Shown piece by piece: positions 1 through 60,800 of a stretch of DNA of 63,467 nt. Position numbers and translations under genes: made by a program. The notes under the pieces were generated by a model. That model did not search any database and was not told the DNA's origin. It was given only the letters and a program-made list of their open reading frames with translations. Source of the stretch: Symmetrospora coprosmae (Eukaryota > Basidiomycota > Cystobasidiomycetes > Symmetrosporaceae); NCBI GenBank assembly GCA_008802785.1, contig VUYT01000055.1, forward strand, positions 1 through 63,467, written 5' to 3'. Each line of letters begins with the position of its first letter. Within the stretch, counting starts at the first letter, position 1.

Positions 1-2789
1 GCGAGCAGGCTGGCCGGAAGCTCGGCCGTGTCGTCGCCCTGAATCAGTTCGCGAAGTTCCGCTAGAGGCCAGAGGGTCGCTACCCAGTGCTGACCTCGTC
101 TTGCAGCCATCTCCTCCACCGCTGCCCATCCATCAGCGTTTCTGGCGCACCTATCCACGCTTGTGCACAGCACGAGCGCGTCGGAGTACTCCTCCTTGTC
201 CAGGGCAGCAGCAACGGGGCTATCTGCCGCCGCAGCCCAGATGCCCGTGTTCTCTAGCTCGACTTTATAGACCTCCGCTCCATTGTCGAGCGCAGTTTCA
301 GCGAGGTAGTTACTGAAGGTGGCCTGTCGCACGATGCTGTTCGCACTGACATCGCTAGTCCGCGCCAGAAGCACAATGCGACTGACGCCCTTCCGTTTGA
401 CAAAGTCGGCCAGCCAGGATTGGATGGGGACGAGCGACGCGGGCTCCAGAGCGAGTAGGCGGTCGACGAGACGAGTCGAGGCGGTATAGAAGCCCGTCTC
501 ATGTGCCAAAGTCAACGCGCATGAGACTGTCAGGTCGATGAGCGCAGCATCGGGCCCGCTCAGGTCTCTCCACTTCCTCAACCCGCTCTGACTGCTGTCT
601 GCCTCCTCTTCAAGGCCGTCGAGCGCCTCTAGGACATCTGGGCCCGGTCCAACCGCTCGGTCCGGAACTCCGCGCACCAGTACCGTCGCTCCCACCCTCC
701 TAGCCTCGCTCCTGATGTAGTCTCGATCCACAGGATGACGTCCGAGTCTGTCCGGGTTGCTAGCGAGGATGAGTGTGCCGCGAGGAGCCTCACGGAAGAG
801 ATGCGTGATGGCGGCCCGGTCTCTCGCCTGGTGAGCGCTTGATGAGCAGCACTCTACGACGACGAGGATGCGGCCTACATTGCTGAAGTCGGGCGCGATG
901 CAGTCGGGTAGGTTCGCGAGAATAGAGAGGAGCTGTCGGGCTACCGTAGTCGACCTCCTGTCTCGCCCGTCATCGTCCGAAGTCCGCGCGTAGATGACGA
1001 GTAGGGGTATATAGGGGAGGGGCGAAGGAGACGGAGAAGGAGATGGAGGTGACACTGTTACGGTCTCGATCTCTCTCTTCGGGCGCTGCGCGACGGTAGG
1101 CGCCATCACGCCATCGCGGAAACTGAGAGCCAGCTTGCCGTCGTCCCGAAAGATGCGGCCGGCGCCCAACTTGATCCTGAAGGCGCCCTTGACGCTGATC
1201 TTGTACCCATACGTCATCTCCCAGAAGCTTCTGATGACGCTGACTGCGTCTTCCACCTTCCCAGTCGCTGCTACGACAGTCGCTGCTACGAGGTCCGCTG
1301 GAACGAAGATCCAGGGACCCTGCTTATTGACTGTCTCGTTGACTAGAATAAGCCGATGCCTGGTGGGAGAGGAGGTGGTGACGCAATCGTGCGTGAGAGT
1401 GTCGGGCCCGCGGAGCGAGAGAGCAACGATAGAGTCGTCTTTTGACAGACGAAGCTGGCTCTCGCGATAGGTGCGTGTTCCAGTCTTTGCCGATCGGTGA
1501 GCATTGGCTGCGTGTCCAATAGCTCCACCACTGGCGCACATATTCCTCTCGAATGCCTGAGTGAATGGCTCTTCGCCGTTCCATGCCTTCAAAGTCGAGC
1601 AGAATGTCTCGCGGAGCTGGACCGGGCTGCTTCCAGTTGAAGCGATGAAGGTGAAGATGAAAATTGCGAACTTGCGCGTGTCGTCGGCACTCAAGGTGCG
1701 AGCCATTGTCTGTGCGGAGGAAGGTGCGCAATGCTGCTTCTCCTTCACCTCGATGAGGATCTCCAGCGGAGCGCTGCGGGCGAGCTCCTCGAGGCTGGTG
1801 TTCTGGCTGAACATGCGCGATCCTACGTGCCTGTCCGTTCTCAGGTACTGCCAGACCGAGAGTATACCTGCACCGAACCAACGGAACCGGATAATATTGT
1901 CGTTCCGAGCGAGATCCTTGATTCCCGTCACTCTGCCCAGTGACGCTTCGACCGCCGCGACTACGTCACCGTGCGCATCCGACTTCCCCACGAGCAGGTC
2001 GAAAGCTCGCGTGATGCATGGTGTCGCGAGCGTATCAGAAGGTGAGCTCGGATGGAGCGAAAGCCCGTCCGAGACGGTGAGGATGCCGCGGAGCGCGCCC
2101 AAGAGATCTTGGGCAGGCGGAAGATGCGGAGACGCGCGATGGCCTGCACTGCTACTTCCGGAAGTGGCGAGAGGAGGGCGCTCTGCGACCGGAATATGCG
2201 GTGTCGGCTTCGAACGTGATGCCGTTACTGAAGGCCGGCTGCGCTTCTCCGGCGGCAGAAAGGCGGATCCGGATTCGGATCGACGCTTTGTGGGGGTCTG
2301 ATACAGTATAACGGAGATCTCCTGATTAGTCTAGAACCGCTATTCGGGATTTGTGCGACTCACGCTCTTTGCAGGCGAAACTGGTGCTAGTGGGTCAGGC
2401 GACACCGACGACACCAGGGACGCCAGTCCTCCCTGCCATAGCTTGTCATTGGCGAGCTTGAGCTGCTCCACGAGCAACAGAGCTTGTCGGACGGGGATCC
2501 ACGTCCCTCGCATCTCCTTGGGCACGGAGACGTAGAGCTGGTGGTATCGATTGATGCCGGTGAGCTTGCTCCAGTCCACAGAGGCTTCTTGCAGGTCGGT
2601 GAGGCGTAGCATGATGCCATCTCGCTCAAAGTAGTCGAACGAGATGCTCTTCTTGCCTCGCGTGGCCTTGACGGTCATCCTCTGGAGCGTCACGGATCCA
2701 GTCTGACCGTCCGCATCCTCCCCGGCGCATCTGAATGCGATAACCTCGCATACCTCTGCTTGATCACGCGCAATGGTGAACGCTGCCAT
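1..2789 (-). CDS. KilA-N/APSES-like protein with two tandem serine-recombinase-like domains (3' end outside window)
   Basis: Two exons are visible. Exon 1 (2789-2364) encodes residues 1-142. A 66-base intron (2298-2363, GTGAGT donor, CTAAT branch, CAG acceptor) is followed by an open frame from 2297 to the window edge, giving at least 907 residues without a stop. Residues about 35-112 resemble KilA-N/APSES DNA-binding folds, including the hallmark GTWIP (95-99). A basic TPTKRR...EKRSR stretch (143-163) looks like a nuclear signal. Residues about 200-545 are unrecognised. At about 570-690 a resolvase-type catalytic domain shows YARTS (R580, S582), Q597, R636 and DRLGR (658-662). A second copy at about 780-890 shows LARTS (R788, S790), RQ (799-800) and DRCARN (857-862). 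Family knowledge: such residues form the active site of serine recombinases; KilA-N/APSES domains bind DNA. I infer a DNA-binding recombinase or a regulator derived from one. The C-terminus is not visible. Base composition does not stand out from its neighbours. Confidence 0.8.
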
Positions 2790-3390
2790 GTCTTCTCACC
2801 CTTTTCGTATGTGAGCGGGTTGGGCATCCCGGAAGACGGACTGCCCCGGAGACGGCATCAAACGCCCTCGGCCTACATTCCAGTGCTGCGGGAGCACAAG
2901 CCAATTCATTGCATCTTCATCATCTTCAGCAGCCTTCGAGTACAAGGTCAGACGCTCTTCCGCTATTCCGTTGTTTGGCATCACAGCCATCCCGTGCCAG
3001 CGTCTTCATCCTGCAGATCCGCAAGTCTTGCTCTAGCATTCTTGGAAGAGAGCACGCATCTCTCAGGGTCATCTTGCGCAACATGCGCCCTCGATGCGCC
3101 ATCTTGCCTTTCTTTCGGACATGTTGCGCAGAGTCTGAGCTTGAGGTCGTCCGGCGCAGGCTTTTGCTAGGAACGTCAATGAAGGATGCATCATTGGTGA
3201 CATCTCTGCCGCCCTGTCAGGATCAATGGGTGTACTCGAACCACCTTGCCGCCTCCCCGTCCGTCGCCTCTGCTGCTGCCGCTACTGCTGCTCTTGCCCA
3301 TCCGGATTGCCGTCCTTCATCGGCAGATGTGGATGCCTCTTTGCCCTGCTGCTGCATCCCGTCGCAGCTCCAACTGCCTGCCAACTGCTC
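2790..3390. promoter_or_regulatory. Shared upstream region between the recombinase-like gene and TRS85
   Basis: About 600 bases separate two divergent start codons. Several short open frames cross it on both strands, but none joins in frame by good splice sites to either gene or shows a recognisable domain. I read it as a bidirectional promoter and 5' UTR region. No specific regulatory motif could be assigned. Confidence 0.4.
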
Positions 3391-6300
3391 ATGGCATCAT
3401 CGGACCAGCGGCCACCCTTGGCTCCACCGTTCATCGCGTCTGCACTGCGCCCGCAGATTGCCATCTATGCTTCACCGGATGTCGACGAGCTGGCAAGGGC
3501 GAACGGCCTCGAGAACCTGGCTCAGCTGCTAAAGCCATGGGAAGGGAGCGTCGAGAGGGGTGAGTCCATTGCAGTGTGATAGGCTGTCTATGCGCACGAA
3601 GTATGCATGCGCATGCTAATGTACTCCGCCGTCTCGTTGCCCGAAGTCAACCTGCGCACGTCGGGCTTCGTCCAGCACACGGTCCCCGTACTGCCCCTCC
3701 TCCTCGACGACTCGCGCGACCTCGTCCACACGGATCTCGACGCCCTCTTCCTAGATAACCTCACCACATCTGTCGAGAAGCGCGTCCCGCAATGGCTCGA
3801 CGGAATGCAGGAGCTCGATGTCGGCGAGGGAGGGGACCATGATCTTTGGCAGGAGGGTGAGTGAGCCCGGAGCCGTCTGCATGAGCAGTACGTGATGCGA
3901 GACGCCGCAAGGGCTCACGCTCGACCATTATCCTCGTTTCAGGAACCATCGAGGAGCTTACACCCTGGTACGCCTTCTACCGAGACCTCCTGCTGAACAA
4001 GCGGCCTCGCACCGAATACGAGACCTTCGGACACCCTGTGGCTTGTGAGCCTGCCTGCTCCTCAAGAACTCCGATACCTGCATGCTGATGTGCGCGGTCC
4101 CAGGCATCATCGCCGTCTCGACCTCCTCCCCAGAACCGCTCAACGCCTTTGCCGCGCTCTACGACGAGACCTCGCCCGAGCGGCTGTTCCGCGACAAGCC
4201 CTGGGTCGACCCCGGCGTGCTGCGTTACTACGTGCTCGTGCACGATCTGAGCACGGGTTCAGCAGAAGAGTGGCAGCCCCTCCTCGAAGACGTGCGCCGC
4301 GCATACGGCGTGCACTGCGGCTTCCTCGCCCTCAACGCCGAGGCGGCCCAGAAGGACATTCCAGACTCGGCCTACACGGACCGCTCGCAGCGCCCAAAGC
4401 CGAAAGCCGACGATTTCAGCGAGCACTGGCGCGAGATCCTCGACTCGCCCAAACGACCCAGCAGGTCGGCCTTCTCGTCACATGCCAATTTGCAGCAGCT
4501 CGGTCAACAGACCGCAGAGCAGGGGAAAGACTCGCCTGACGAACCGGGGAGGAACTTGGGAGAAGAAGACGTACGCCGCATCAAGGCTTTCCTGCGCGAG
4601 TTCACAGTGCAGAGCCTCGTGCCGTGGATGGAGCGATCCGTGTCCCAGACCAATGAGCAGGTGCCTTACACATTTCGCTTCGTTCGGCGATATGCTAAAA
4701 ATTCACTGACGACTGCGCTCTGTGATAGCTCGCCGCCAATCGAAAAGGCATTGCTGCACGGCTGTTCAGCGTAGGCCGGCGGTACTTTGGCTCGCGACCC
4801 GCTTCGCCAGGTCCAGGCGGAGCAGGCGGACCCGCCTACGACCCTATCAAGGGCATGTCAGTCTGGTCGGACCGCCTGTTGTGTAGGCCTCTCGCTGACT
4901 ATACGCCTAACTACCTCTCATCCCAGATATCCGTATCAGACACAAGAAGCGCAGACCCGGCGGCTCGCAGATTTCGCCTTTATGATCTCGGACTTCCGCC
5001 TCGCGTCAGCCATGTACGAAATCTGTCGCAAGGACTTTATGAACGACAAAGCCTGGCGATACTACGCATCGGCGTCGGTGCGCTTCTCCAGCACTCTTGT
5101 TCTGTGTAGGCGCTGAGCGAGCTGACATTTGGCTCCCACAGCGCATGGCTGGCTTGACGGGACTGCTGCTGTCGACGCTGCCCGGCACGGCAACGATAGA
5201 CGCGGATCACTACCTCGACCAAGCTGGCTCAGCATCACCGCCCGGTACCACCCCACTGGACGAGCTGCGCGCCATCTGCATGTACTATGAGCTGTATCGG
5301 ACGCTCGGCGATTGGCGACGAGCATCTCTGGGACTTCTGAGATCAGCGGGCGACGTACGAATCCCCTTCTGACCTTGACCGTGCTTTCTTTCCCGGCTGA
5401 TGAGCACGATGGACTGCCTCCGCAGATCGAGGAATTGCCCAGTGCCATCATGCTCGAGCAGGCTGCAATGGCTGTCCTCCACCTGGAACAACCCGCTCGC
5501 CGGCGCTTCGCCCTCCTCATGACCATCGCATCGCACCGCTATCAAAAGACAGGGAGCAAGGCCTTAGCCCGCCGGTGCGGCCTGCAGGCTCTGTCGATCT
5601 ATCCGCGGCAGGCTACGTCCGTCTCCGGGCAGACCTGGGCAGCGGCGCGCAACCATCTTGAGCACGCCCTAGGCCGGCAAGCGTACAATACGGGGCAGTC
5701 CGAGCAGGCCATCCAGCATTTCGTCCGCCTCCTCGCAAAGCACGATATTGCTGCAGAGACGCCCTTCACTGCCGAGAATGGCGCGACGGATGACAGCGGC
5801 AGCGGCCAGTCGGACGAGAGTTTCCTGGACGACTTCAAGCTGGCGTGGGATCTGCTCGGCGAGCGGGCAGACGAGGTCGCGCGCGAGCTGGACCTCGCGC
5901 TCCCGGGCCCTGTCTTCGACGTCCAGGCAACCACGATCGTCACGACGGCGCAGAACGTCGATGCTCAGGACCCTGCTATCAGAATACTGGAAGCGCAGTT
6001 CCTGGAGCGCGGATATCCGTACTCGCATAGTAGAGGCAGAGTGCGAAAGGCGCCCGCATCCTTGCTGCCAGATTCAACCGTGAAGAGCTTGATCGTGGAC
6101 GGTGAGGCAGTCACGCATTCATCAAGTAGACGTCGAATGCTGAAGGTGTTCCAATCCAATGTTCACAGACACCTTCCATGTCACCCTTGTCGCCAAGAAC
6201 AGCCTGGGCACGTCATACACCCTGCGCGGCATCCGCTTGGCCTTCGAGGCCGATGGCGACGCTGCCATCGTGGAAGCGGACGTGCTTGGAGATAGGACGA

Positions 6301-8383
6301 TACCGCCTCGCAGCGTTGCACAGGTGGGTGCCAGCCGACATCGCGAATAACGTAGTACCGGATTGACAGTTTCTGTCCCGCCGCTATTCGCCCGCAGATA
6401 CCGATCAAGGTGCGCGCTCTACAGGCAGGGACTTGCAGGCTACGCTCCGTCAGGTTCCGATACAACGGCTTGCTGCAATGCACAGAATTGCTGGAGAAGC
6501 GAGGCAGACGGCTCTTTGGCAACAAAGCCGAGATGGTCACCCCGACATACTCATTGGACGATAGCTTGACGATCAAAGTGCGCGCTGCTGTGCCAGTGCT
6601 GCAAGTGGAGCAGTGCTCCCTTCCCGCTCAATGTCTGGCGGGCGAGGTGGCCCTGGCGACGCTTTCAATGCGGAATGCGGGGACCCGCCCAATGGGAGAC
6701 CTCAGAGTCTTGTGCAGCCATCCAGCTTACATCAGCCACCTGCAGTCGGGAACGGACCTGTATGCCGCCGGCAAGCAGAGCGATACGCTTCGGCTCGGCA
6801 ACAACATCCGGCACACGACACCGCATACAGTGCTGCCACAAGGGCAGGTATTGGCAGCTGGCGAGACCACCGCATTACATATCGCATATCGCGGTGATGA
6901 TACGGGCATGCACGAAATTTCCTGGCTCTTCGTTTACACCGAGCCAGTGGGTGCAGTCCACCAAGGTTCGTCTGTATACGCGACCGCTGATGCTGAACGG
7001 ACCATCACTACAGGACGCAGATCTCGTACAAGAGTACACATCACAGTACAACCACACTCTGGAAGTTCTACCTTCGTTGGTCATTCGTCCGCAGATATGG
7101 ACTTCCATGGAGACGTCCGGGCCCGCCATCTGTCTCGACATCGACAATCCGCAGCTGGGAGAAGAAGTCGAGATCGCGCAAGTGTCAGCCGTATCGGCTC
7201 AATGGCGCATTGGACAGACCCTCGAAAACCGCAGGTAAGCATCATCGCCCCCTCAGAGTGGCGAGGACTGGTGTTGACCTGAGGCGTGCGGCCCGCCTCC
7301 CAGCATTCCATCTGGACAAGCCGTCTCGCTGCGCTTGCCCTTACAACATGCGCCTTCTGCACAAGATCCAGCAGCAGTCTGGAAGCTTGCACTCACCCAG
7401 CTCGACCTATTGCTCGCGGGACGGGACCTAGAGACGGGCAAGCCCGCCGATATCGATGTACACATCAGTCAGGGTCTAGCGGTACGGCTCTGGCATGTCT
7501 CGGTGGGTTACGGCTGTCACTGTCACTGACACGCGTCGTGCCTGCAGTCCGACAATGCGTTCAATCTGGGAGAAGGAGTCCTGCATGAACAGTTCCTATC
7601 TACCCGAGCCAATCTTCGCATCCAGGCACTCCAGGGTCAGTTTCCGACAATGGAGCCAGACCTATTCCCTCGCATCTTTCCCCTCTTCACGCCGGGCACC
7701 CTGGACCTTCTCGTTTTCTGGCGACTGAAAGCCTCAGGAAGGATGGGCCATCACTACATTGCCGACTTGCCCATCGGCTCGCTCGAGAATGTGGCAGAGC
7801 AGCTCCTGGAGAAGGCAGGCGAGACGCTTGGCGGACGCTACGAGGAGAGCCAGCGCGACCGGGCCGTCATCATCGACAGCATTGCTCAAAGCGAAACGGG
7901 CGTCGATCATTGTCCTGTGCTGGTTACGCAGACGGTGCCTTTGCACGGCGAGGTTTCTGCGTGAGTTGGTCTGCTTGCATATGCCATAAGAGCGCTCTGA
8001 TCAGGCTTAGGCGTTCCTTTCGCACATGCAGCTCTGTCAAGAGCGTCTTCCACCTGCAGAATACCAGCACGCACGAAGTGCAGTGCGTGCTTGAGCTGCT
8101 CGGTCCGAACGGGACCGGCCTTGAGCGCGAATAGTAGGTACTTCCGCAGTGGCACCCTTTTCCTCACGCTGATACCTTTCATCGTTACAGCGCGCCCGTT
8201 CAATGGATCGGCAAGCAAGTACATCGGAGAACCCTGACGCCCGGAGCTACTGCCGATGTCCTCGCCATTTTCCGTTCTAGCAGTGCTGGATGTCGAGATG
8301 CCGGAAGCTGGCTCCTCGACATCACTCGTCCGGGCAAACAGTGGACAGTCAGCGGCGAGCAGAGACTGCATCTGGCCGGATAA
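3391..8383 (+). CDS. TRS85: TRAPP complex subunit Trs85/TRAPPC8-like
   Basis: A long gene with roughly a dozen short introns. The chosen start (3391) begins MASSDQRPP; exon 1 ends at 3559 and exon 2 opens at 3647, giving a join that reads SVERVNLRTSGF. The N-terminal part carries the pattern of the family (IAIYASPDVDELA, LLKPWEGSVERV, then LYDETSPERLF and FLREFTVQSLVPWMERSVS). The middle is a helical repeat region (about 4850-5850). The C-terminal half is the beta-rich region of TRAPPC8 (FHVTLVAKNSLGTSYTLRGI, then LSMRNAGTRPMG). The stop is at 8381-8383. Family knowledge: Trs85 is the TRAPPIII-specific subunit that directs the Rab1/Ypt1 exchange factor to autophagy and Golgi membranes. Its 3' end faces REV3 across about 145 bases. 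The product identity is firm; individual internal exon ends were not all resolved. Confidence 0.85.
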
Positions 8384-11500: not shown

Positions 11501-14500
11501 CGTCTTCAACGATGTCGATCGTGTAGCGCGACAGGCCCATTCTGCGGAGGTTGAGCTCGATGCCATCGTGGTTGCTCGTTTCGTAGTTCAGGGCGATCAA
11601 ACCACAGTGGGTCCCCTCTTTACGACCATTGTCTGGAATGTGGTCATCCTCGTTCTGCAAGCAGTAGAAGATGGCCTGAATGGGGTCCTGGGCGGGATCA
11701 GGTAGCAGCTCGCCTCGCGTGTTGACTGTCTCTTTGTGTCAGCCTGGCATGCGCTGTTCCGACCCAAGACTTCAGTGCTCACTGTGCAGCTCGATGGCAA
11801 GAGAGGACATGTGCTCCTTCTCCTTGACGACGGCATTCGACGCCTTGACTTGTGCATACTTGGCTCCATACGGGTTGGCCTGAGTTGGACCTTGAACTTG
11901 CGACTTCTGGATCCACTGCGTGTCCATGATGAGAGCCTTGCCTTTCCTATCCACTTTCGGAGCCTGAACGGTAGTTGTGTCTTCCTGTCCCTCCTTCCAC
12001 CCGAGGATAGCGCTACGCTTAGGTAACGGGACAGCGTATTGCCAGCGCTTAAAGCAGACTGGCGCGGCAGGTATGGACAAACGGTCCTTTGAGCGTGCAG
12101 CGTGCTCGAACTCCGGCAGGAAGCGGTCGGCATCGCTGCGGTGCAGGTATCGTCTGCCAGCCCATTCGAACGTATATGCTGGTAGATCCGTGGGATTCGA
12201 CCAGTAGGCATCCTGGTAGATCTTGTGCGGCAGTCGATGGTTGTCGAGGTCGAGCAGGATCTCATACAGCGTAGGAGCAGAGACCGAGAGGCGATAGGTG
12301 CGTCGTTCGCCGTGCGGCGCCTGACTGCTGCTTGGAAGCTTGTGCGAGCTCGGCCAGCTGGACGATGGAGTGAGCGTGATGATTGCAGCGTGGTCGGGCA
12401 TTGCAGCTTCGTTGGCCTCACTACCTACCAAGGCTCCCTCGAATCGGTTGCTTTCCTGCCCGTTGGGTTGCAGCATGACCTCTGGAGAGGCCGAAAGCTC
12501 TGCATCGTCTCGGCTATCCTCCTCGTCCTCCTCCCAGCCGTCTCCCTGTTCCTCTTCCTCAGCCTCGGCATCCGAGCTGTTGCCTCCATCGCGCTCTGAG
12601 AGAATGCTTGCGAAGCGCACATTGCGCGGCAGGTCCGGTCTCAGCCCAGTCTCGCTCTCTCCAGCTTGGCCAGGGTGCTGAACATGGTGGCCATTAACCT
12701 GGAAAGATCGCGTTGGAGAGTTAGATAGGTCGAGATTTATGTTATGATCCTCCTCGGGAGGCATGTCCGTTTTGCTGGCACTTCTAGCGGTTTGACCTGC
12801 AGCGAGATGTTGTCCCTGCGAGACGGGAAGGTCCAGACTGTCGGGCAATGGTGGCGAGGTGTCCGGCGACGCGGGTGGAGGACTGCCCACGAGCTGGGTC
12901 GGCAAATCCGCCAGAGACTCTGGCGCTTGCTCGCTTTCCGCGCTCGAAGTGGCATCCGAGCTCTCCATGTGAGCGATTGGAGGTTGAGCGGCCTCTGCAG
13001 AGCTGAGGACGATATGCATGCGTGCCTCTCCGTTCCTGTGGGCCCAGGCTCCCACTTCGTCCTCGCTCTCCGACGACGAGTAGCTGTAGCTCCGGCGCGC
13101 CTTCTTGCTGGCAGGTCCGTCCTCCTCGGCCCGGTGGTGCTTCGCGCCATTCTGCGGAAGTGCTTTATCGACGTTCGGCTCCTTCGCCTTTGGCTTCGCC
13201 CTTGCCTTTACCTGCGGCTGAAGCATTCCCTGCAACACCGTCCTGCCGTGCTCGCCAATGGCATGGAAGCCGATCATCTGTTCCTCGCGGTTCTTCTTTG
13301 CTCGCGACTCGGCCACAAAGTTTGGGTTGACGACGGCATTCCTGAGCTTCGACTTTGCGGGCGAGAAGTAGTTCTTCTTGGCTGGCGAGGGCCGCTTCGA
13401 GAGGCTCGCGCTAAGCGCAGGGACACTCGTACTTGTGGCCTTGTTGACCGGGGCGGGAGTTGCCCGCAATTTGAAGGGACTGACCTTCTCTGGCGAAATA
13501 TCGGCATGCTTGCGCTTCTGCGGCGAGTAAACACCCGATGCCCAGCGCGACTGCGATGGTGCAGGTCGATCTTCCGGCACAAGATCAGGTCTACGATCCA
13601 TAATGGCCTTCTCGGGGGAGCTGTCATCAAGAAGCCCGTCGCTATCGAGATCCAGTTGACTGTACGTGTTGCTCGATGATCAGCTCGTTTCGGGGATCAA
13701 GGAGACGCATTTGAAGCTCACCTCAGATCTCCGAACCCAGCTTGGCGGAGCAGCTCTCTCTGCTTGCTCGCTTCGGAAAGCGGAGGGGCTGCGGCAGTTC
13801 TAAGATCCGCAACTGGTGTGCCAGCCCTCGACGTGGCGACGGGATCGCCATCGACGAGCCTCGATGCCGGTGTCATGGCAGGCAAGCCATTCGGCGCGAG
13901 AATAGGTGGCGAGCTCCGGAGGTCCATGTCCTGCCCTGCTCCCAGGTATTCTGGTTCTGGCTCACCGAGCGGCATGAGCTGGTCCAGAAGCGCAAGGTCC
14001 GGGTCGACGTCCTCCATCGCTACATCGCGGTATAGCGCCAGATCCTCTTCGTCTTGTTCTCGACCCTCTGTTGCCGCTGATGCTTCGCGACTGCCTTCTG
14101 TAACCGGCGCATGCTCGTCCTCGCCGACTGAGGCGCGCTCTTTGCTTTCGGCAGTCGTGCTGCGCCGCGGCGGGCCAGGCCGCTGAGCCCCCATCGGCGC
14201 GTTCTGATCTCGGTAGATACCGGCGGCCTGCATCTCCTCCGACAACTCCCGCGCCGCTTCGATGCTCTCCAGTGCTTCCTGTCGGCTGACACCCGGCTTG
14301 CGGGCAAGGTTCTTCGCCCGCTCCTCTACGGCCCGCTTGTCCTCCTCGACAGCGAGCTCCTCCTCATCAGACTGCTCATTCACCTCGTCCACGCCGAAGT
14401 CGTTGTCGACTCGCGCGTCCAGCATGGCGTCCTCACTTTCCGCCCGGAGCAGCTGCGCCTGTCCTTCTTTGGTCCTCAGCCGAGCGAGGTACCTCGGATC

Positions 14501-21963: not shown

Positions 21964-24747
21964 TCAGAACGGCTGATTCGACTTGGCGTTCGTATTCGCG
22001 TTCGCTCCGGCGTTCTCTGCAAGGTACTGGTTGTAGAGCTTGAGCGTCTGCTCGTCCTCATTGATGGACTTCTGCAGCTGCTGCCGGGCCATCTGTCGGC
22101 ACATTCAAGCAAGAATCAGCACGCGCTCCACGTACTCGACGAAGACGAGACAAGGCACGCACCTCCTTGCACGACGCCTTCATGAGCATCTCGTCGCACA
22201 GCCCGTCGACATCCACATCATGCGGGACCTGCGATTTCGGCCATGCGCACGCCATGCCAAAGCTGCCCGCGGGAACACCAGGGGTCGCGTTCGTTGCCGG
22301 ACTGGGCGATTTCGACTTGCGAGCGCCGGCCAGCCCGCCCCACGTCTCGTTCTGCATGTTGAGGAGCTTGCCCATGTCGTCCCTTTCTCGCTCCGCCTCG
22401 GCCCGGTCGACGGGCCGCCCTTCCTTGGCCTGCTTCTCCATGTGCAGGTTGCCCATGACGTGCCCGATCAGCGGGTGCTGGTAGCTGATGGGGTGCGGGA
22501 AGACGTCTGCGATGCTCCCGCTGCCGAGCGGGGGCACCCTGCTTGCCCCTGCGCCTGCGCCCCCAGATGCAGACACGGACGAGGACGACGCAGATCGGTG
22601 CGCGCCCATGCTCGTATTTGGCGAATTGGCGGACGACACGCTCGCGCTCGCGCTGGTCGAGGCGCGAGTGGGGACGGACGAAGACGACGTCGTGCTGTCG
22701 GTGCGGAAGTACGGCTGCTGCTGGGCGGTACCGCTGCTACCGTCGACCCCACCCCCGCTGAGAGCCGGCGGCGACGCGACGAGGAAATCGCTAAAGTCGA
22801 CAAGCTCGCTCTTGACGCCCGGACTGGGCCCGCCAAACCCGGCAAACTGGCCTGGCGAAGCCCCCGCACCGGTGCCCGCATTCTCGGCGTCAAAGCTGGC
22901 AAAGAGGGGATCGCGGTAATTCATCATGTCGAACACCGAGCTGGGCGTCGTTGCCATGTTGCCCGGGCTGAAGAAGGAGCTCGATCGCGATGCGTTCCTA
23001 TTACCGCTCCCGTTCGCGTTCGCAGCATCGAAAGCAGTGTCTGACGCCGAGAAGGACGTCTTTGAGTTCTGCTGCTGCTGGTGCTGGTACCCGAGCAAGG
23101 CAGGATTCGTCTGTCCTGCAAAGGCGTTGCCCGCGAGGCTTGCAAATGACAGAGTGCCTGCGTTGTTGCTGCCATTCCCGCTGTAACTGTTATTGAACAG
23201 GAACGGCATGGCCGAGCCGGGAGTAGCTGGGAACGCCGCGTCAGACGGGTCCGAGCTCGCGCCGGAGGAGCACGTCGACGTCTCTGGCGAGTCGGCCGCG
23301 GCGCCGTTGTTGCTGCTCGCGCGCTGCTGCACCTGCGCGGGGAGGGTAGCAGGGCGCGAGGGCGCCTGCTGCTGCTTCTGCTGTGTGGTGCCAGCGGGCG
23401 ACGCGGACGACGCAGCAGGGGAGAAGCTCGAAAGAAACGACGCAAACGCCGCAGCGTCGTTGCTGGGCACCGCGCCCGCGCTACCCGCCCCGCTTGCGCT
23501 TGCGCTTGCGGGACTGCTCCCGGCATTACCAGCGCCCGTGTACTGGTCCCACGGAAAGACGAGTCCTGCCTTCTGCGCCTCGGAGATGTTGGTCACGCTC
23601 GGCGGGATAGCCTGCGGGATCTCGGTGCCGAACGCGGAGGCGTTCCACATCCAGTCGTCCATCCCTCCCGAGCCCGATCCAGACCCAAACCCGCCGCCAC
23701 TGCTGGTCCCGCTGCTGCTGTTCCCGCTGCTGTGGGTCTCCGCGCCGTGGATGAGCGCAGGGACCTGCGAAGGCGGGGCGGGCTGCGCGGGCGTCGAGAG
23801 GAAGGCGAGGATGTCCTGGTCGGACGAGAAGGAGGCCGGGGCATTGTCCGCGTTTGCATTTGGGTTGTTGGAGGACGTGCTGGAGGAGAGGTTGGCGGGC
23901 ATCGAGAACGTGAAGCTGGACTGTGGAGCGGAGGCAGACGACTGAGCTCCGCCGGCGCCCGATCCCTGCTGCTGCAGCCGGCTGTTTTCGTCCTGCAGAC
24001 GCTGCACGAGCTCGCGCAGGTCTGTGCCACGATAGCAGCCGCCGGGAACTGCGTGAGCCGCTCTGCATATAACCACACTCGGGTTTGGTCTGACGCGCTA
24101 GCCGGACTCACTCTGGTTCTCCGACATCTGATCCTCGTTGATCTTGTTGAGCCCTTCAATCTTGTCTTCAAGGTCCTTGAGAACGCGCTCCTTGCGCTCG
24201 CGGAATGCGCGCTGAGCGTTCCTGTTCTGCTCTTTGCGCTTGTCGGTGGTGGACGTCTTCTTCTTGCTGCTGCCCGAGGAGGTTGTCGCATCCGGGGGTG
24301 ATTCTGATTTCGGCGTTAGCGGGCGGGCGTCAGTTCGAAGGATCGTCGCGGGGGTCAGTCGGGCTGCTGTACACACACTCGATGAGGCAAGAAAGACCCA
24401 CCGGATCGCTGCTGGTCAGCGTGCGAGTGCTGCGCCTGTCCATTGCTCCCTGGTGAGCGCTGCGAGGCTGCTGGGGTGGAGCCGGAGGCAGAGGCAGAGC
24501 CGGAAGACGACTGCCTCCTGCTGTCCTTGAGCGCGGCGGTTGTGTCGATCTCGGCGTTGCTCGCGGGTCCTTTCCGCTTGTTATTGGGCTTGTCTGTGCT
24601 GCTCATGTTGCTATCCCCGCTCTGTGCGGCGAGGAAGTCCTGCAGGCGCTGGAGGTAGGCCTGGGACGTCTGGTTTGCATTGCCAAATACGGGAGGGGCC
24701 CAGCTGGAGTGGGGGAACAGACAAGGCATATCCGAGTCAGCATCCAT
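21964..24747 (-). CDS. YAP1: Yap1/Pap1-type bZIP oxidative-stress transcription factor
   Basis: Start MDADSDMP at 24747. The basic region (RNAQRAFRERKERVLKDLE, about 24130-24240) carries the Q-x3-AQxxFR signature of fungal AP-1 proteins. With the intron spliced to an acceptor just before CTGCGCGAG, the zipper keeps a heptad register (LEDKIEG, LNKINED, QMSENQN, LRELVQR, LQDENSR). A long Ser/Ala/Gln/Gly-rich middle follows. The C-terminal cysteine-rich domain reads DVDVDGLCDEMLMKASCKE, matching the Yap1 c-CRD that overlaps the Crm1 export signal. The last exon continues MARQQLQKSINEDEQTLKLY and stops at 21964-21966. Family knowledge: peroxide forms disulfides that hide the export signal, so the factor stays nuclear and activates thioredoxin and detoxification genes. 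Two C-terminal cysteines are visible where yeast has three; the n-CRD is less clear (STCSSG). Confidence 0.9.
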
Positions 24748-57816: not shown

Positions 57817-60800
57817 TTATCTCCTGCGATCTTGGTGAGTGCTGTTCTCGCCCTTGTGTGTTGTCGGGCTATATGTGTGAAAGGAAGACTGTCCCACCGA
57901 GCGAGGAGCCTGGCGGGGCAGATTGAGCGAGTCGATGGGCGGCAGGTATGGCGTACGCTGTGGTGCTTGTGCATGCGCGCGTGCGTGCCCAGGCAACGGG
58001 CTGTGGGCCAGCACGCTCGGCGGAGTAGCGGATGCCAACTCAGCAGATGCTGACGCGTGAAGCAGCTGTCCATGCCGCTGGCGGTGATCAGCGTTGACGC
58101 GCTCAGCAGCAGCGTGCGTGTGGCCGAGCGGGACGAGTGGATTCACGGGCGGCAGCTTGAATCTGTCAGGCTGCTTGGCCGCCTGCCTCTGCGCCCGTGC
58201 CTGCGCCTCTTTCTCCGCTGGGGTCCGCTCGGCCTTCTTGCGCCTCTGATCCGCCCGCACAGGCTTCGATGATGCGTGCTCGACCGTCTCGCCGGACCCG
58301 CCTACCATCCCGTATCGCCGCGCATCGCCAGTCGACGCTGCATGTGCTGTGCTGTCCGGTACATGGAACTGCAAAGGCGGAGCGGGCATGCTTGGCGGAT
58401 AGCGGATTGTACTGTGCGCCGGCTGGATGTGAGCATGAGCTTGAGTGGATCGGGGAGGCGGTGTGTGTTCGGCTGAAGCCCACGGCGTCAGCCCGTCATG
58501 GAAAGACTCGTACGCGCTCCGCTTCGACTCGAAGAACTCGGTATGCGGTGCCGGTCCCGTACTCGCCGAAGCAGATGTGCGAGAGGTCCTGGTTGTCACC
58601 GGCGTACGGTAGCTATAGGCAGGCTGCTCGCCTGCTCGGGTGGGCGGAGACCAGATGGCGTAGTTGGGTGAAGTGCCGTACTGCGTTGCCGATGGCAATA
58701 TGAAAGACGCGGATGCAGGAAGGGCGGGCGTGTCGGGCGTAATGTACGAGGGATAATGGGTAGGAGCCGGACCTTGCTGCGGCGGTGAGAAGGAAGGGGG
58801 ATATGGTGATGTTGAGGCTGACGGTGCTGTTACAGGAGTCGGCCGCATATCACCCCTGCTGCTGGTATGCCTGGAAGTGTCATAGTGCTGCGGCAGGTTC
58901 AGGGCGGCGCCAAAGGCAGGTCGAGACCACGGATCCACTGGCTCGGGCTTTGGACCGATGGTACCCCTAACAGCGGTTTTTGCGGCGGGGTGACCGTTTG
59001 CAAACTCTTGCGATACGTTCCCCTCCTGCTGGTATAATTGTCGCTGATCATCCTGCTGGCGCTCGATGTAGTGCTGATCGTGCCGCTTCTGCCGGGAAGC
59101 ATCGCCTTGCTGCCTTTGCTCGTACTGTCTGGGCGCTTGCAGCTGATGACGCTGGTAGGGATTCTGCTCTCGTTGGTGCTGCTCCTGTTCCCACGGCTGC
59201 TGATCTCGTGATTGCTGATCTCGAGGGCGCTCCGCAGTCTGCCGGTCCTCTCGGTCCCCTCCGTGCCGCTCGGTAATCTGTGTCGCCGGCATGGGCGGCA
59301 GTGTCCAGCTCGATTCGTCCTGCGTCCGCGCATGGTGTTCGGGCTCGCCTCTGCCCAAAGAGACGTCCGTCGACCCAGCTTGACCACGGTGCTGCTTTCC
59401 GGTCGTACCTAGATCCTGAAATACAGACGGTACTAGCAGCGGACCTCCCTGACTGGCGTCTTGCGCTGCAGATAGGTCATTATAGTCCAGGTAGCCCGAA
59501 GGACTGTGCGAAGCGTCGTGAGCGAGTTCAGACTGTGGCGCAGGGGGCGGGCTGAAGATGTTGAATGCTGGAGGCTGGCTGGACCTGCCGTTGCTGTTGA
59601 TAGTGACCTCGTTTGGCGGCCTGCGCGCAACGCTGCTCGTGCTGTAGCCCTTGAGTGGCGAGTCTCCTTCGACGTCCAGGCTCCCGGACGCGCGCGAAGC
59701 ATCGAGGTCCATAGCGGACGTCAACGGTCCCAGGAGTGCAGCGGGGCTGTGCGCGTCGAGCGAGCTGCCAGACGAGGCGGTGCTCGCATTGAGATCAGCG
59801 CCGAGGCGACGCATCGATGGCTCGGAGAATGGCGGGCCCAGAGGAGGAGGCATGGCCGGCGGCGGGGAGGGCGACATCCCGGGTGGGTAGGCAGCGCCAG
59901 AAGTCGAAGGGGCTGTGCGGGAGCGCGCTCGTGTGCGCATGTACGGCGACGGGGACTGGCGAACGTGCGCGCAGTGGTGCGCCTGGCTGAGGCCCATCCT
60001 CATCCCGGCGCCTTCATGCGTGTAGCTGGTGCTCCCGCTCGCACTCGTATTGACGCTCCCGCTGCTCGAGCCGGCGCTGCTCGCTGAGCCAGGCGTCGTT
60101 GCGCGCCGGCTGTGGCTCCGCCCTCGTCCGCGTCCAGCTTTCCTCGCGCCGTTCGCCCGGCGTGTGTAAACGTAGTCTGGGTGCATCTGCCATGGGCCAG
60201 ACGGCACGGCGACGCTCACCAGCAATCAGCGTTCTGCGGCTATCACCAGCGCATGCTCCAGAAAGCAAACACGTGACGTGGACATAGGAGGGCGCACCTG
60301 GTGGAAGTTCCGCTTGACGACTTTTGCATCGTCCTGGAAGCGCTGCTTCTGCTCTTGCGGCAGTTGCTTCCATTCTTGCGCAAGGAGCTTGGCGACCTCT
60401 GCGACTTTCATCCTGGGGTTTTCATCCTGGAGGGTCGGCCGGCGGAAGCGCGAGTAGATCATGAAGCTGTTGAGTGGGCGCTTAGGCGTGCCTGCGCGCA
60501 TGAGCGGGATACATAGTCAGCAGATCAGACCTATCACTTGGCTGCATGGGAGAGTGACCCACCATTCAGGTGCAGTTTTTGCCGGAGCAGAGGATTCGTC
60601 TCGACCTCGCTCGAGTATGACGAATCGCTCGTGTGTCCCGCTGTTGCGGGGCTCGGTCGAGGCAGGGCGAAGAGCGACGAGTCGAGGTAGGGCAGTGCAG
60701 CCTTATCGGGCGTATACTGTTGGTGCTGCTCATGCTGCTGCTGCTGCTGTGATGACGGACCGGCATAGGCTGCGAACCCGAGCGTCGTGTCGGAGGCTGG

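Follow-up and report, generated by a model that had tools for sequence, protein, structure and literature searches.

What kind of protein is encoded by the gene that runs off the left-hand end of contig VUYT01000055.1 of the basidiomycete Symmetrospora coprosmae (assembly GCA_008802785.1)? The window analysed here is this entire contig, C50 (63,467 bp). An earlier interpretation, the sequence-only reading, had proposed a spliced frame of at least 907 residues with a GTWIP-type sequence near its N-terminus, in which a KilA-N/APSES domain is fused to two tandem serine-recombinase domains (blocks 1 and 2). The frame itself was borne out. On the minus strand it comprises 907 residues, counted from the first in-frame ATG at 2789, carries GTWIP and is open at the contig end; because the window ends with the contig, the C-terminus of the protein is missing. 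Exon 1 (2364..2789, minus strand; amino acids (aa) 1-142) starts at this ATG and contains a putative N-terminal DNA-binding region. Exon 2 (3..2297, minus strand; aa 143-907, 765 codons) is stop-free to base 3. Between them lies a predicted intron (2298..2363, minus strand) of 66 nucleotides (nt) with the borders GTGAGT...CAG and, as judged by eye, a branch-point-like CTAAT stretch; its retention would lead to a stop. Long low-complexity stretches separate the regions of the protein, again as judged by eye. From the analyses described below, we consider it moderately probable that this single-copy, spliced nuclear gene of a fungus encodes a recombinase core, then a linker that is conserved and a second domain that is probably a degenerate sister of that core, and that it goes back to an old acquisition kept by selection.

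The argument is carried by block 1 (666..1013, minus strand; aa 571-686). According to well-supported sequence comparisons, it is a diverged serine-recombinase catalytic domain with an active site that looks complete. The Pfam family Resolvase (PF00239) matches exon 2 with 24.3 bits and the C-terminal 449 aa with 26.4 bits, at a curated cut-off of 23.3 bits. Below the cut-off were the isolated 121-aa piece of block 1 (22.1 bits), a related protein, P0003, which is introduced below (17.5 bits), and a six-frame scan of the genome (20.4 bits). In that scan block 1 was missed at the default threshold and found at E 0.005 once the threshold was relaxed; the relaxed scan, with one candidate scored, gave no second match up to E 10. 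The PF00239 matches expected for both C-terminal blocks were therefore obtained for block 1, just over the cut-off, and not for block 2.

When the single block-1 sequence was aligned with hhalign to a profile of 29 prokaryotic serine recombinases (the 24 left of 116 matches after clustering at 75% identity, plus five weaker matches), the score of 28.1 exceeded those of all 300 shuffles. A profile of full-length resolvases scored both P0003 and block 1 lower than the catalytic-domain profile. The hhalign alignment pairs R580, S582, Q597, S627, R636, D658, R659 and R662 with R8, S10, Q19, S39, R45, D67, R68 and R71 (gamma-delta numbering). A MAFFT alignment with gamma-delta agrees with it except for Q597, which is two columns off, and S627, which shifts by two to three columns. 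R8, S10, Q19, R45, D67, R68 and R71, with the roles assigned to them in gamma-delta, are what we take to be the active-site set, and block 1 has a counterpart for each. By motif position and alignment, S582 (codon 978..980, minus strand) is the predicted nucleophile. A profile of block 1 and P0003, searched against all PDB sequences, retrieved five distinct matches (E ≤ 10), all of them gamma-delta/Tn3 resolvases, and the three printed alignments keep R45 and D67-R71 in register. As its best E value is 0.56, this search is weak if taken alone.

Comparison of folds raises the question whether the blocks represent some other Rossmann-like or Toprim-like domain in which the recombinase motifs are coincidental. 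In a low-confidence structure model, block 1 matches serine-recombinase folds among many Rossmann-like ones, some tied in Z with the recombinases; the fold matches of block 2 are generic Rossmann-like lobes of binding proteins and receptors; and one of the two members of the block-1 alignment gives a weak Toprim_4 match (E 0.2). These observations speak for the coincidence. The specific matches of block 1 by Pfam, PDB sequence and fold are serine recombinases, however, and its catalytic residues are in place, which makes the coincidence very improbable. Periplasmic binding proteins, the top Foldseek matches, were set aside as two Rossmann-like lobes. Among the 50 Foldseek matches listed, the TM-score to the query does not exceed 0.27, and VIA-align matches of the binding-protein type that span both blocks have root-mean-square deviations of about 8 to 11 Å.

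The motifs R-x-S, RQ and DR-x-x-R occur twice, exactly as they had been read from the sequence. Block 1 has R580-T-S582, RQ at 596-597 and D658-R-L-G-R662 with a serine-to-D spacing of 76 residues, and block 2 has R788-T-S790, RQ at 799-800 and D857-R-C-A-R861 with a spacing of 67. A strict pattern (two hydrophobic residues, R-x-S, RQ and DR-x-x-R within range) appeared twice in none of 20,000 shuffled versions of the protein and once in 48; for a looser pattern the corresponding counts were 73 and 1,742 of 20,000. Among the 311 open reading frames of at least 100 aa in the window, the recombinase gene included, five contain the looser pattern and the recombinase frame alone contains the strict one. 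Since the patterns were drawn up after the motifs had been seen, independent tests weigh more.

One observation that does not depend on the patterns is that the relative P0003 carries the block-1 motifs. This protein of 348 aa, encoded on one 40-kb ENA contig, matches with E 5e-58 and 48% identity, which falls to 41% over a longer alignment of 341 columns. Block 1 is best kept (66 of 116 positions identical), compared with 37 of 97 in the linker and 33 of 103 in the region before block 1, and all active-site residues of block 1 are identical. P0003 stops just past the R-T-S that opens block 2; our guess is that an intron may follow there. Therefore, a second protein has the order pre-domain, block 1, linker and start of block 2. 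Direct support thus exists for the gene model, for block 1 as a domain with its residues, and for the conservation of those residues in this one relative. Further protein searches, which scored those candidates sharing words with the query, gave no relative of 421-1339 aa; because each such search scored about 7,600-8,000 word-sharing candidates, distant relatives may be missed. In the prokaryote and virus collections no relative was found among viral contigs, bacterial and archaeal genomes, plasmids or phages; the single match of the plasmid scan (E 6) was taken as chance. PADLOC gave nothing, and PHROGs matches were no better than E 0.15-0.3.

The conservation in P0003 also bears on whether the protein has lost catalysis and been domesticated for DNA binding or regulation, with the recombinase fold kept for dimerisation or as a scaffold. 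Several features would suit such a role: block 2 lacks an equivalent of R45, no E-helix or C-terminal DNA-binding domain is recognised, and the low-complexity stretches between the regions are long. Yet S582, R580, R636, R659, R662 and Q597 are kept in two proteins of 41-48% identity. As a silent domain would be expected to shed some active-site residues, we regard the silent protein as quite unlikely.

Between the blocks lies a linker (390..665, minus strand; aa 687-778), which is conserved in P0003 and has no Pfam match. Its consensus with P0003, LAHExGFYTxSxRxVDRxLxLEP, looks unlike an E-helix by eye. After block 1, neither an E-helix nor a C-terminal DNA-binding domain was recognised by Pfam or, in the linker, by eye, in a protein whose C-terminus is missing.

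Block 2 (39..389, minus strand; aa 779-895) contains R788, S790, Q800, D857, R858 and R861, and has no R45 equivalent; that position is a serine in the alignment, so that the active-site set is incomplete. Alternating strands and helices are predicted in it with low confidence. Compared with block 1 it scores 21.7, the best of 300 shuffles reaching 20.0. Three results leave a second recombinase domain short of proof: 24 of 300 shuffles equal the score of block 2 against bacterial resolvases, which is not significant; Pfam finds nothing in the C-terminal 188-aa piece holding block 2; and the fold matches are the generic lobes mentioned above. For these reasons block 2 was not accepted as a proven resolvase. 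Judged by its sequence, it is probably a degenerate duplicate of block 1, and the tandem arrangement is moderately supported. Of the two recombinase domains in the sequence-only reading, the first is thus supported by Pfam, fold matches and a conserved relative, and the second is plausible.

Serine recombinases attack DNA with their serine, hold the phosphate with arginines, and act as dimers and tetramers. Against this background we infer DNA binding, cleavage, a role for block 2, descent and domestication as follows. The N-terminal region may bind or position DNA, similar to the N-terminal DNA-binding domain of IS607-type TnpA, which has an inverted order in comparison with resolvases. S582 would attack the DNA backbone, with R580, R636, R659 and R662 surrounding the phosphate, and the attack would yield a 5'-phosphoserine link. 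Block 2 might serve as a built-in partner of block 1, in which case one chain would mimic a recombinase dimer of which a single site is fully equipped. The simplest reading of the two blocks would be that they pair internally as a pseudo-dimer, with one active site complete. As to descent, the gene probably stems from a serine recombinase that was acquired long ago from a prokaryote or a virus and is now maintained by selection.

The N-terminal region is less clear. GTWIP (2493..2507, minus strand; aa 95-99) is the sole APSES-like stretch standing out. Neither Pfam nor NCBIfam gives a match for exon 1 up to E 5, and the only PHROGs match of this exon (E 0.3) is to a family of unknown function. 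When exon 1 was scored with our own profiles, 14 of 2,000 shuffles scored higher with the KilA-N profile, 14 of 2,000 with the APSES profile and 53 of 2,000 with the combined profile. The KilA-N profile was built from nine of ten bacterial loci (L140, with an internal stop, was left out, and two of the nine are identical), the APSES profile from three sequences. With hhalign, an 18-residue stretch at GTWIP scores 22.3, and the highest score among 200 shuffles is 19.4. Exon 1 lacks a KilA-N motif pair that was written by hand, yet this pair matches just four of 12 true domains. As a sensitivity control, the APSES and KilA-N profiles scarcely detect one another (E 0.001). The single-sequence structure model of exon 1 is poor, with a predicted local distance difference test score (pLDDT) of 37.4. 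A firm KilA-N/APSES assignment, as proposed earlier, was therefore rejected, there being no curated profile match and a faint signal with our own profiles; what survives of it is this faint signal, above 99% of shuffles. A diverged KilA-N/APSES domain in exon 1 is weakly indicated by the sequence as a possibility. Clear APSES-type genes lie elsewhere in the genome, at C29:9856-10418 and C20:252027-252332 (L127-L130); one of them is Mbp1-like and seems to be split by introns within the APSES domain.

Is the gene a genuine part of the fungal chromosome? The genome comprises 20.05 Mb in 77 contigs. On the plus strand next to the recombinase gene, the frame 4049-4771 encodes the TRAPP subunit TRS85 (Pfam TRAPPC-Trs85, E 3e-35); its start, placed by eye near 3390, lies head to head with the recombinase gene at a distance of about 600 bases. 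Eight of 20 further window frames scanned have a Pfam match: DNA polymerase delta/zeta N-terminal, AAA lid, methyltransferase, kinesin, GH16, phosphoacetylglucosamine mutase, DUF3752 and MyTH4-RhoGAP. Contig C50 is an ordinary piece of eukaryotic chromosome, and its short introns and its genes mark it as fungal. The GC content at third codon positions (GC3) is 0.72 in exon 1 and 0.68 in exon 2, and 0.67-0.77 in four other window frames. The eukaryotic neighbours and the neighbour-like GC3 argue against contamination and very recent arrival. That the frame is not fungal, through contamination or misassembly, could be suspected from the position of the gene at a break in the assembly, the end of the contig. 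However, the gene contains an intron whose splice sites are good, shares its GC3 with its neighbours and its contig with TRS85 and other eukaryotic genes, and has no relative found in bacteria, plasmids, phages or viruses, so that we give this suspicion hardly any credence. The gene is real and unusual, a single-copy gene of a fungal nuclear chromosome, spliced according to the predicted splice sites.

The contig end is of interest in another respect. Protein and DNA searches of the genome revealed no second copy of exon 1, exon 2 or bases 1-3400, apart from the first 77 bases. These (1..77) are identical to the start of contig C65 (L006; 819,728 bp), where they lie upstream of a class-II DAHP synthase gene. 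C50 and C65 diverge past base 77, C65 running on into the class-II DAHP synthase, and the genome search found the 77-mer on no third contig. We infer from the exact length of the match a de Bruijn assembly overlap at k = 77. Such an overlap would mean that the sequence past the contig end is present at least twice, or that an inverted repeat lies between C50 and C65. Should a repeat have inserted into the gene at the contig end, the final 25 residues would be part of that repeat.

This break is among the observations suggesting that the gene encodes the recombinase of a mobile element that is low in copy number, still moves in fungi and, like IS607, has N-terminal DNA binding and no need for terminal repeats. 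The active site of block 1 looks intact, the assembly breaks within the gene at the 77-mer common to C65 with the next stretch presumably in at least two copies or inverted, and in Saccharomyces kluyveri, which has IS607-type serine recombinases, one of six loci is described as strain-polymorphic (PMC2715888). Against mobility, on the other hand, stand the absence of any further genome copy of exon 1, exon 2 or bases 78-3400, the intron, and a codon usage resembling that of the neighbours. Moreover, bases 1-4000 contain as inverted repeats two short internal pairs of 16-17 nt; with one gene end missing, terminal repeats are still possible. None of 22 other window frames scanned has a TnpB-like Pfam match, the far side of the gene being missing. 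On balance, a moving element appears unlikely. We favour a serine recombinase of new architecture that has long been resident in fungi and which, as far as can be judged from comparative data, would be a kept host enzyme rather than a mobile element or a scaffold.

To our knowledge, serine recombinases have seldom been reported from eukaryotic nuclei. The remark in the sequence-only reading that they are rare there needs the qualification that a fungal case has been reported: according to that report, the IS607-type serine recombinases of S. kluyveri are proteins of 237-254 aa in six copies, with a mean ratio of non-synonymous to synonymous substitutions (dN/dS) of 0.19 and loss of the serine in two members (PMC2715888). 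Some Fanzor2 elements are likewise described as bearing IS607-type serine recombinases (PMC3627910), and IS607-type TnpA is portrayed as having its DNA-binding domain ahead of the catalytic one, in 'inverted domain order' (PMC4058570). In contrast to the S. kluyveri TnpA, which has one catalytic domain and six copies, the gene studied here is single-copy and spliced and encodes at least 907 aa with a linker and a probable second domain. A region N-terminal to the catalytic domain may be shared with IS607 TnpA as a general order.

Other known systems differ as well. Unlike gamma-delta/Tn3 resolvases and DNA invertases, the protein has no recognised E-helix or C-terminal helix-turn-helix; it also has insertions after R-x-S and before SSS...DR, and its domains probably stand in tandem in a large protein. 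In large serine integrases, recombinase and zinc-ribbon domains come after the catalytic domain. Here the catalytic domain is not N-terminal as in the phiC31 type, and Pfam finds no such domains in the available sequence, which lacks the C-terminus. Fungal APSES/KilA-N regulators share with it the GTWIP-type stretch and a profile signal that is faint, being outscored by 14 of 2,000 shuffles; they differ in that exon 1 is matched by neither Pfam nor NCBIfam and the clear APSES genes of this genome lie elsewhere. Block 1 is accordingly classed as a serine recombinase, and the protein is classed neither as KilA-N/APSES nor as an IS607 transposon. Among the papers listed in searches of one open-access library, no described protein of this architecture was found, in line with the earlier statement that no such fungal protein was known. 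A fungal serine recombinase as such is already known; this architecture appears to be new.

It is tempting to go one step further and propose a family of tandem serine recombinases, specific to fungi, in which a single chain carries an N-terminal DNA-binding region followed by one intact and one worn-down catalytic domain, and which the host has co-opted for programmed cutting or rearrangement of nuclear DNA. This proposal is speculative and its chances are modest. More generally, a conserved, single-copy and spliced serine recombinase whose active site is intact would imply that some fungi either retain for themselves an enzyme that cuts and rejoins DNA in bacterial style or harbour a mobile element not yet described. 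The fusion of a catalytic domain to its degenerate sister would offer a natural test of the way in which recombinase dimers divide their work, and even a silent scaffold would illustrate the reuse of the recombinase fold.

Elsewhere in the window, three long minus-strand frames are without Pfam match (57820-60225, 802 aa; 22061-24097, 679 aa; 11775-13679, 635 aa). The right-hand end of the contig (63441-63467) consists of a CCTC simple repeat, which is a likely cause of the break at that side.
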